A stretch of 11,379 nt of DNA from Chloroflexota bacterium (lineage in GTDB: Bacteria; Chloroflexota; Anaerolineae; DTPP01): contig JAAYZY010000340.1 of NCBI GenBank assembly GCA_012514615.1, forward strand, positions 1 to 11,379, written 5' to 3'. Shown here one piece after another: positions 8,639 to 11,379 of this stretch. The notes beneath the pieces were generated by a model. That model saw nothing but the letters and a program-made list of their open reading frames with translations. It was not told the DNA's origin and ran no database searches. Position numbers and translations under genes: made by a program. The number at the start of each line of letters is the position of its first letter. Within the stretch, counting starts at the first letter, position 1.

Positions 8639-9856
8639 ATGACCGTACGCGCTGCCGTACAAGCGGTAGACATCACTCCCGCTCTGGGCTGCCCTGTGCA
8701 GGGGTGGGATTACCCCCGCCAAGCCCGGGAAATGCCCCTGCCCCTCACCGGCAAGGTGCTACTGCTGGACGATGGCCAGCGGCAGGCCGGCTTGGTGACG
8801 CTGGACCTCTTCGGCCTGGAAGCGCCCTGGGTGGCCCGCCTGCGTCAGCGGCTGGCCCGGGCCACCGGCATCTCCCCTGCCCTGTGGATGATCGCCGCGA
8901 GCCACACCCACTCTGCGCCGGTGACCACCAGCCTGGCCCTGCCGGCCGGCAGCACGCCAGACGCCATGTACCTGCAGTGGGTGGGGCAAGCCCTGGCCGG
9001 GGCAGCGCAGCGGGCTCAGCAGGCGCTGGAGCCGGTGCGGCTGGGCTGGGGGGCTGGCCAGGTGCGCTTCCCCATGAACCGACGCCACGTCATCTGTGGC
9101 CAAGTGGCTTGGCCGCCCATGGCTAACCCGGAAGGGCCAGTCGATCGGGAGGTAGGCGTGGTGCGGCTGGAGCGGGAGGACGGCCGCCCGTTGGCCCTGC
9201 TTATGAACTGCGCCTGCCACGCCAGCATCCTGGGCAATGCCCACGCGGTGCACCCCGACTACCCCGGGGTGGCCCAGGCGCAGGTACAGGCGGCCCTGGG
9301 CGGCGACGCCGCGGCCATGTTCCTGCTGGGCTGCTGCGGCAACGTGCGCACCAACTTCACCGAGCCGTCTGGCCGCTTCGACTGGCGCGCCGGCGCCGCC
9401 GAAGCGGCCACAGCCGGCGAGGAGCTGGCGGCAGAGGCGCTGCGGGTGTGGGAGAGGATCGTCGCCAAGCCGGTCGAGCAGTTGGCCGTAGCCGAGGCGC
9501 ACCGCACGCTGTCCTTCCGGCCCGGCTTGCCTGAACCGCTGCCCCGGGTGGAGGCGGAGTTCCAGGGGCTGCGGGCCGGGCCTTTGCTGGCGCTCTCAGT
9601 GCCGGCAGAGGTCTTCGCCGAGATCGGCCTGGCGGTGAAGGCCGGCCTGAGCCAAGCGCCGCTGCTGGCCACCTGCACCAACGGCTTCGTGGGCTACGTC
9701 CCCACCGCCGAGGCGATCCCCTTGGGCGGCTACGAAGTCCACGGCTGGCCCCAGTGGTGGGGCTACCCGGGCGCGTTCCACCCGGCCACCGGCGATCTGT
9801 TCCGCGAGGCGATGCTGGAAGTGGCGGCGGCGTTGGGCGCAGCCAGGGAAGGCTAG
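8639..9856 (+). CDS. Neutral/alkaline ceramidase-like protein (short, cytoplasmic)
   Basis: A 405-residue protein resembling the N-terminal domain of neutral/alkaline non-lysosomal ceramidases. It keeps the likely zinc-site motifs: SHTHSAP (His89, His91), CACHASILG (His194), SVPAEVFAEIGL (Glu324) and TNGFVGYVPTAEAIPLGGYE (Tyr353 or Tyr365). The segment that carries the nucleophile Ser in the Pseudomonas enzyme here reads LLGCCGNVRTN (229-239), without an obvious Ser. True ceramidases are about 650-700 residues with a signal peptide and a C-terminal domain; this one has neither. It is probably a metal-dependent hydrolase of unknown substrate, and a true ceramidase role is not supported. TTGAGGAG (8622-8629) lies 9 bases before the ATG, and the gene follows priA after 39 bases. 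Its TAG stop shares the CTAG at 9853-9856 with the convergent NUDIX gene. Confidence 0.85.
   Translation: MTVRAAVQAVDITPALGCPVQGWDYPRQAREMPLPLTGKVLLLDDGQRQAGLVTLDLFGLEAPWVARLRQRLARATGISPALWMIAASHTHSAPVTTSLALPAGSTPDAMYLQWVGQALAGAAQRAQQALEPVRLGWGAGQVRFPMNRRHVICGQVAWPPMANPEGPVDREVGVVRLEREDGRPLALLMNCACHASILGNAHAVHPDYPGVAQAQVQAALGGDAAAMFLLGCCGNVRTNFTEPSGRFDWRAGAAEAATAGEELAAEALRVWERIVAKPVEQLAVAEAHRTLSFRPGLPEPLPRVEAEFQGLRAGPLLALSVPAEVFAEIGLAVKAGLSQAPLLATCTNGFVGYVPTAEAIPLGGYEVHGWPQWWGYPGAFHPATGDLFREAMLEVAAALGAAREG
9853..9856. other. CTAG shared by two convergent stop codons
   Basis: TAG at 9854-9856 ends the ceramidase-like gene on the plus strand. The same palindrome read on the minus strand gives TAG at 9855-9853, which ends the NUDIX frame. 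The genes therefore meet tail to tail with a 4-base overlap and no room for a terminator between them. Confidence 0.9.
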
Positions 9857-10290
9857 AGCCCCAGGGCGGCGGCGGTCAGCTCGTGGGCCGGGGCGCGGAA
9901 CTGGCCCCACTCCCGCCAGGGCCGCGGTAGGGTGCGCAGTTGGCTGGCCACGGCGCGCAGCTCAGCCAGCGGCACGGCGCGGAAGTCGGTGATCTGCTCG
10001 TGGGCATCGTGGCACTGGGGCGCGCCGCACGCTTGCGGCTGCAGGAGGAAGACCCAAGAGGCGAAAACGAAGCTCTCGACGCCGTGGCGCACTCGATATT
10101 CGATGAGCCCCACCAGGCGCTCCGCTTCGGCCAGCAGCCCCATCTCTTCCCACATCTCCCGGCGCATCGCCTCTTCCACCGGCTCGCCGCGGTGGACGCC
10201 GCCGCTGGGCAGGCGGTAGACCCCGGCCGGGTAGAACGCTTTGGTGTGCAGCAACACCTGTCCGGGGGATGGGCACAGGGCCAGTACCAC
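9853..10290 (-). CDS. NUDIX catalytic domain, downstream part of the split gene
   Basis: The 145-codon part after the TAG, beginning with a GTG that directly follows the stop. It has VVLALCPSPGQVLLHTK, then LPSGGVHRGEPVEEAMR and REMWEEMGL, which together match the full NUDIX signature (residues 30-52). NUDIX enzymes cleave nucleoside diphosphates linked to another group, using a divalent metal; the substrate cannot be told here. Because the fold can begin at the VVLAL strand, this part alone might be folded and active if translation restarts at the GTG. The nearest upstream purine run (AAGGG) is 13 bases away, so restart would rely on coupling to the terminating ribosome. The 3' end converges with the ceramidase-like gene, sharing CTAG. 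Confidence 0.7.
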   Translation of the reverse strand: MVLALCPSPGQVLLHTKAFYPAGVYRLPSGGVHRGEPVEEAMRREMWEEMGLLAEAERLVGLIEYRVRHGVESFVFASWVFLLQPQACGAPQCHDAHEQITDFRAVPLAELRAVASQLRTLPRPWREWGQFRAPAHELTAAALGL

Positions 10291-10293
10291 CTA
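10291..10293 (-). other. In-frame amber codon splitting the NUDIX gene
   Basis: TAG on the minus strand, in the context CGG CAG GCC TAG GTG GTA CTG. Both sides are in one frame and both look like parts of one NUDIX protein, so this is a substitution-type interruption and not a frameshift. Confidence 0.85.
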
Positions 10294-10430
10294 GGCCTGC
10301 CGGCCCTTGCGGTAGGGCAGCAGGGCAGCATGGTCATCTTGCGCCACCCCATCCTCCAGGTGTACCACCTGGTGCGGGAACGGCCCGTAGGTCACCCGCA
10401 GGCGCTCCAGCTCTTGGGCAGAGAAAGGGG

Positions 10431-11379
10431 TCATGCCGGTTTCCCTCCGCCGGCCCCCCCGTTGCGGCGCTGGGCGCGCCCGCGCCACCAGAGCACCCCA
10501 CCCGGCAAGCTGGAGAGGTAGATGAGGAGCTGCACCAGCAGAGAGAGGGAGATGGCGACCTTGCTGGGGATGGCCCCGGCCAAGGTGGAGTAGAACAGGT
10601 CGTAGGCCCCCTGGTTCACGCCCAACCCGCCCACCGAAGGGATGACGATGGGGGCAAAGGCGATCATGGGGTTGAAGAGGAAGATGTGTTTGAGGGAGAG
10701 AGCGCTGCCCAAGGCTTGGGCCAGCAGCCAGTTGACCATGTTGGCGATGGCCAACACCCCCAGGGAGATGCCGAACGCCTTCAGCAGGCCCAGCGGCCGG
10801 TCGCGGAACGGCTGTATCGCCTCGGAGAGGCGGTGGTAGATGGGCGCCAGCTTGGAGAGCAGCGGCAGGGCGAAGAGCCGCTCCACCAGGCGGCGCAGCC
10901 GCCGGCTCAGCAGGGCAGCGAAGAGCAGCACAAAGGCCCCAAACGCCGCCCAAACTACCCAGATGACCGCCAGCAGGGCCGGCCGGCCTTCGATCCAGCC
11001 CAAGACCACCCCCAAGCTCATCACCGCCGCGGCGGTGCTGTAGGCCAGCAAGCCCACCAGCTTATCCACCAAGACGGAGATGGCCGCCTCGGCCGTGTGC
11101 TCGGTGTGGCGAGCCAGGCTGTAGCCCCGCACCACGTCGGCGGCCACCAGCGGCAGCAGGAAGTTGCCGAAGAACAGCCCCACGAAGGTGTAGTGCCACA
11201 GCGCGGTCAACGGCACCTCAATCCTCTGCAGCCGCAGGAGCAGACGCCACTTGGTGGCGCTGACGCACACGGCCACAAAATAGAGCGCCAGGGCCAGCAG
11301 CGCCAGCCACAGGTTGGCCTGGGCCAGAACTTGGGCCACCGTCCTCACGTCCACCTTGAAGCCGAAGAGGTAAGTGATC
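10431..11379 (-). CDS. Flippase-like membrane protein, LPG-synthase TM family (5' end cut)
   Basis: An integral inner-membrane protein of the lysylphosphatidylglycerol synthase TM region/UPF0104 (YbhN-like) type. Conserved features: GNFLLPLVAADVVRGYSL (usual N-x-x-LP-x-x-x-x-D-x-x-R), VDKLVGL (usual VDRxxGL), IPSVGGLGVNQGAY and LPGGV. Six or more hydrophobic segments alternate with basic loops such as SRRLRRLVERL, and the tail is Arg- and Gly-rich. Family members are linked to lipid or polyprenol-phosphate sugar transport and membrane lipid modification, but the substrate is unknown here. The GTG at 11354 is probably not the true start: the frame stays open to the window edge and reads YLFGFKVD before it, which fits the end of a first membrane segment. 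The gene is therefore partial. It overlaps the NUDIX start by ATGA, implying one minus-strand operon. Confidence 0.88.
   Translation of the reverse strand, partial: ITYLFGFKVDVRTVAQVLAQANLWLALLALALYFVAVCVSATKWRLLLRLQRIEVPLTALWHYTFVGLFFGNFLLPLVAADVVRGYSLARHTEHTAEAAISVLVDKLVGLLAYSTAAAVMSLGVVLGWIEGRPALLAVIWVVWAAFGAFVLLFAALLSRRLRRLVERLFALPLLSKLAPIYHRLSEAIQPFRDRPLGLLKAFGISLGVLAIANMVNWLLAQALGSALSLKHIFLFNPMIAFAPIVIPSVGGLGVNQGAYDLFYSTLAGAIPSKVAISLSLLVQLLIYLSSLPGGVLWWRGRAQRRNGGAGGGKPA

Follow-up and report, generated by a model that had tools for sequence, protein, structure and literature searches.

Single stops in otherwise intact, conserved genes are familiar from interrupted coding sequences and young bacterial pseudogenes, where, according to the available parts of two reports (PMC1852416, PMC7918605), only re-sequencing tells a real mutation from a sequencing error. 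Of 73 such genes of M. smegmatis that were re-sequenced, 28 proved to be errors (PMC1852416, available part). Conserved in-frame stops under purifying selection, with dN/dS below 1, have also been reported across bacteria (PMC7918605, available part), and an oxidative damage artefact with a G-to-T direction has been described (excerpts of PMC12390751 and PMC8748355). Termination-reinitiation at overlapping genes is a further known bacterial arrangement (PMC6728339, in excerpt). As far as these portions go, the published work agrees with both a real mutation and an error as the source of such a stop.

The stretch of DNA analyzed here (the window, 11,379 bases) carries a NUDIX gene on the reverse strand (9853..10434), recorded as 193 sense codons with an internal TAG and a terminal TAG and recognized from homologues on either side of the stop. 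The frame starts with ATG (10434-10432), which is overlapped as ATGA by the TGA (10433-10431) of the flippase-like frame upstream, and ends with TAG (9855-9853). An earlier reading of the same DNA, made from the sequence only, had placed the ATG at 10434, followed by 47 sense codons, a TAG at 10293-10291 and 145 sense codons, and these coordinates and counts were confirmed. The 47-codon N-terminal part thus occupies 10294..10434, the in-frame amber codon (codon 48) 10291..10293, and the 145-codon catalytic part, which contains the NUDIX box, 9856..10290, all on the reverse strand. A palindromic CTAG (9853-9856) is common to the terminal TAGs of the NUDIX gene and of the convergent gene on the forward strand (8639..9856 in the frame list).

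The 145 codons after the stop contained no further stop or frameshift. An open frame alone is weak evidence in this GC-rich window, which also holds an antisense frame of 469 aa. The 47- and 145-codon parts were taken as one gene because homology runs on both sides of the TAG. Like the interrupted coding sequences in the available parts of the two reports above (PMC1852416, PMC7918605), the gene has one stop in an otherwise intact conserved frame, with the same ambiguity between mutation and error. Compared with those cases, as far as they are described there, its stop is distinctive only by the invariant residue that it replaces and the GTG behind it.

The read-through product, with the TAG written as Gln, was used as the query in a protein search, which returned 72 proteins, one of them the window's own 145-aa piece. 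With this piece excluded, 48 of the 71 homologues covered 91-99% of the read-through product. Their lengths ranged from 133 to 216 aa, and 67 of the 71 were 189-216 aa long. The nearest was 52% identical. The nearest named homologue came from an Anaerolineae MAG, and many of the 28 species-level loci described below bear such names. By these names, the source of the window is most probably an uncultured member of the Chloroflexota (Anaerolineae).

Homologues of about 145 residues without an N-terminal extension, the finding that the earlier reading had set against an interrupted gene, were absent, though they lay within the length limits of the search. The closest was P0067 (133 aa), the sole homologue of the 71 that stops short of the TAG column. 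The window gene thus compares with an unnamed NUDIX subfamily of about 190-215 aa, mostly from Chloroflexota, which has a 45-50-residue N-terminal extension. It shares with this subfamily its length and N-terminal part, a Glu-Val-Val strand, HTK, the NUDIX box and a C-terminal WG-FR-H motif. On the other hand, it has TAG at the Glu column, and even the nearest member is only 52% identical.

The sequence-only reading had proposed to look up the residue at the TAG in aligned homologues, and the answer was uniform. In the 72-row alignment the codon-48 column was Glu in all 70 homologues that reach it, and neither a stop nor a gap was seen there (0/70). At the DNA level, a search of the species-level genome collection with an 11-row alignment as query gave 28 loci, all with a Glu codon (16 GAG, 12 GAA); with the read-through protein as sole query, a genome scan gave no match. 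The class-level search gave 26 loci, of which 25 had a Glu codon (21 GAG, 4 GAA), the remaining one (L062) being unread since it begins past the column.

L052, L057 and L061 are apparently the same contigs as L006, L011 and L009 and were counted once. This left 50 distinct readable loci, 35 with GAG and 15 with GAA, and none with a stop; they may overlap with the 70 proteins. A scan of viral contigs found one distant locus (L001, 27% identity over residues 86-186), which falls short of the stop and was left out of the counts.

TAG is one substitution away from GAG, the commoner Glu codon of the relatives. Because of this proximity, the sequences mark the amber codon as a nonsense lesion, one that strikes an invariant residue of the first strand of the NUDIX fold. 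The same residues precede the Glu in four relatives (RQAE in L003, L004, L039 and L049), so the frame at the stop appears to be ancestral. A local frameshift around residues 28-47 was considered and rejected after the other two frames were viewed by eye, as the relatives share RQA before the Glu.

We consider it probable, if by no means certain, that the window carries a recent single-base nonsense allele, that is, a fresh null allele or a very young pseudogene. This reading is favored since the homologues span the stop, Glu is invariant there and the frame is ancestral. The alignments themselves display a stop with homology on both sides, a Glu that is invariant at its position and a frame with no second lesion. 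In the proposed course of events, the gene would have begun as a NUDIX hydrolase gene typical of its family, about 193 codons long, in which one recent single-base substitution changed the invariant Glu codon (residue 48, on the first strand of the fold) to TAG. Ribosomes starting at the ATG would release a 47-residue peptide and no enzyme. In the sampled population this copy would be a fresh null allele, or a pseudogene of very recent origin. Three points are inferred here: the organism really carries this base, the gene gives no active product, and its loss is tolerated. Such an allele would show cleanly how a stop that replaces an invariant residue and is followed by an inherited GTG can mimic a designed split gene; it would mean little beyond the NUDIX gene.

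Against the nonsense allele, the sequence is explained just as well by a miscalled base, the nearest homologue being only 52% identical. It is a substantial possibility, to which we give a clearly smaller share, that the gene is intact in the organism and that the TAG came into the contig through faulty sequencing or assembly or from a minority variant. The window is a complete metagenome-type contig, and the single substitution that separates the TAG from the relatives' Glu codon fits an error as well as a mutation. The proportion of errors among the M. smegmatis genes (PMC1852416) and the G-to-T direction of oxidative damage (PMC12390751, PMC8748355), as given in the portions cited above, speak for an error. 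On the other hand, no other broken frame was noticed in the window; the remaining frames of the 11 are open, and wherever Pfam or NCBIfam recognizes one, the match has the expected length, as far as tested. The contig is therefore not visibly error-rich.

Single in-frame stops are ordinary background in such data. They were surveyed in 396 genomes from the class to which the genome of L015 belongs, drawn evenly from a larger group. The NUDIX family was found at E 1e-15 or better in 133 of the 396 genomes, and an in-frame stop was present in 1 of 150 NUDIX matches among the matches listed, the aligned stretch only being considered. This copy (L083, G028:C439) has an in-frame TGA where the relatives have a conserved Gly, in an ERFLG stretch. 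For the flippase, 3 of the 49 matches listed (48 genomes; aligned stretch) had one stop each, with TAA, TAG and TGA occurring once each.

A separate decayed copy was found in an isolate of Thermosporothrix hazakensis (L029, 4001-4342), with an in-frame TAG further upstream and the C-terminal part lost. Like the window, the L029 and G028 copies have an in-frame stop in the same NUDIX family. Their stops are at codons other than that of the window, and L029 has additionally lost its C-terminal part.

Reassignment of TAG to an amino acid in this genome is most improbable. Nothing specific was found in its favor. TAG terminates three of the 11 frames in the window, namely the cyclic-di-AMP receptor, the 8639-9856 gene and the NUDIX gene itself, which upholds the argument from TAG usage in the earlier reading. 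The Pfam profile of the cyclic-di-AMP receptor is filled exactly to its TAG (109 of 109 positions), and the terminal TAG of the NUDIX gene falls at a length typical of its homologues. Within the window, the other ten frames had no internal TAG. The 8639-9856 gene, previously called ceramidase-like, and the 38-1018 frame, both long, were matched by neither Pfam nor NCBIfam at E 0.001.

The 145-aa part matched the Pfam NUDIX family PF00293 with an E value of 3.8e-12 and 46.8 bits (curated cut-off, 21.1). The alignment spanned its residues 3-118 and positions 9-123 of the 134-position profile. Taken by itself, the 47-aa part had no Pfam match at E 0.001. No NCBIfam model reached its cut-off, with 12 sub-threshold families for the 145-aa piece and 13 for the read-through product. 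Against the consensus G-x5-E-x7-R-E-U-x-E-E-x-G-U, the NUDIX box was intact (G78, E84, R92, E93, M94, E96, E97, G99 and L100 in read-through numbering). The nearest solved structure by sequence was 2pqv (E 5.9e-12). In Foldseek the top matches were NUDIX enzymes, the best being 3i7u (E 1.5e-9, TM by query 0.49).

The structure model of the read-through product, in which the TAG is taken as Gln, had a pLDDT of 92.3 and a pTM of 0.90. In this model the N-terminal part forms a helix (6-16), a strand (21-27), a second helix (36-42) and the first residues of a strand (45-53) that holds residue 48; another strand spans residues 77-81. The 145-aa piece modeled alone had a pLDDT of 95.7 and a pTM of 0.88, with the first strand reduced to 50-53 and the 77-81 strand shrunk to isolated bridges. 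The models suggested that a product started after the stop might fold, though with the invariant Glu missing and the sheet incomplete. The stop had been placed at the edge of the NUDIX fold, leaving the catalytic part whole. The intact box bears out the second half of this statement; the first half does not hold, the stop being inside modeled strand 45-53, at an invariant column.

The codon after the stop (codon 49, 10288..10290, reverse strand) is GTG, so that a possible start codon directly adjoins the TAG in frame. In principle, ribosomes could stop at the TAG and restart at this GTG, so that a 47-aa leader and a separate, active NUDIX protein of 145 aa would result. We regard such two-part expression as unlikely. 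The adjacency in one frame speaks for it, and so do the confident model of the 145-aa part and its match to nearly the whole NUDIX profile. The unusual divergence of residues 28-47, described below, would also fit.

The relatives, on the other hand, offer a simpler origin for the GTG. Val is usual at residue 49 (59 of 71 rows), and codon 49 is GTG in 9 of 28 species-level and 14 of 25 class-level loci, or 21 of the 50 distinct ones. A GTG behind the stop is thus expected by descent. Anti-SD pairing upstream of it scored -5.7 kcal/mol, which equals one and exceeds three of the starts of the 11 scored frames. Of 294 start-like codons inside the frames of the window, 26.5% equal or better this value, which is therefore within background; the gene's own ATG scored -10.0. 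None of the 70 homologues has the TAG-GTG arrangement, and a product from residue 49 is predicted to lose half of strand 45-53, with 77-81 reduced to bridges.

Termination-reinitiation as described in the cited excerpt (PMC6728339) likewise has stop and start adjacent, and the flippase-NUDIX ATGA is of such a kind by sequence. Unlike the systems described there, the TAG-GTG lies inside one conserved domain and is absent in the relatives. A bolder version, marginally less probable again, would make the TAG-GTG a translational valve, in which flippase-coupled ribosomes end after the 47-residue leader and a fraction of them restart to make a little short catalytic NUDIX protein. If this is true, residues 28-47 would have diverged because they belong to a leader that the enzyme no longer includes. 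Restart of either kind would neatly illustrate how reinitiation can make a nonsense mutation tolerable. Of the four options named by the sequence-only reading, then, a fresh nonsense lesion and an assembly or sequencing error came out ahead, and the TAG-GTG restart was weakened by the inherited Val codon.

Stop readthrough was the remaining option. Decoding of the TAG at some rate would produce a little full-length enzyme, for which the undamaged frame beyond the stop and the conserved in-frame stops cited above (PMC7918605, available part) may be quoted. We consider it rather doubtful, more so than either form of restart. Conservation, seen in those cases, is lacking here, with no stop at this column in any homologue or locus, and the window contains no tRNA genes. 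Near-cognate decoding would place some residue other than the invariant Glu at the TAG, except where Glu itself is inserted. No specific support was found in these analyses for restart or readthrough.

The nonsense allele was further examined for its age. Past the stop, codon-position GC was 0.78/0.48/0.88, like that of the other frames in the window. Of the 57 columns there that are conserved in at least 70% of sequences, 7 deviated, against a mean of 5.88. The lack of a second stop or frameshift, this ordinary GC and the intact NUDIX box point to a young lesion. The ordinary column deviation past the stop, together with the losses elsewhere in the family (L029, G028), also favors a nonsense allele.

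Before the stop the picture was less even. Among 8 columns conserved in at least 70%, 4 deviated, against a mean of 1.18, and 13.4% of the other sequences deviated as much (short rows P0042, P0044, P0049 and P0067 omitted from both column counts). In identity corrected for overall identity, residues 28-47 ranked third lowest of 94 sequences and residues 7-27 ranked 72 of 95, with the same four rows and L029 omitted. Against a fresh event, this divergence and the 4 of 8 deviating columns could reflect an older relaxation of constraint that preceded the stop. The divergence of residues 28-47 is the one result that leans to such relaxation of the N-terminal part. The segment may also be just a variable linker, as the read-through model was least confident at residues 30-32. 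A tandem loss of N-terminal function was considered and left without a clear sign, since residues 28-47 were divergent and residues 7-27 were not.

Upstream of the NUDIX gene lies the flippase-like gene (LPG_synthase_TM / TIGR00374; 10431..11378, reverse strand), whose 5' end is beyond the contig. Among 29 loci compared, two (L005 and L015) have a relative with about 60% identity immediately before the NUDIX gene, and the adjacency was seen by coordinates in a third genome (G034). The order in both loci is glycosyltransferase family 2, flippase-like and NUDIX (L005, 1892-5657; L015, 1810-4474), followed in L005 by a GNAT (Acetyltransf_6) gene. From this context, a role of the NUDIX protein in lipid-linked sugar or envelope metabolism may be guessed. 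No paper joining Nudix, flippase and Anaerolineae was found in the literature search.

The NUDIX family was also seen in longer frames. In L007 (2969-4531) a membrane domain of the Type II CAAX prenyl endopeptidase Rce1-like kind precedes it in a fusion. In L009, L043 and L051, open frames of similar length lie upstream. In L022 (3008-4594) a methyltransferase domain precedes the NUDIX domain in one open frame, of which the start, and hence the fusion, is uncertain.
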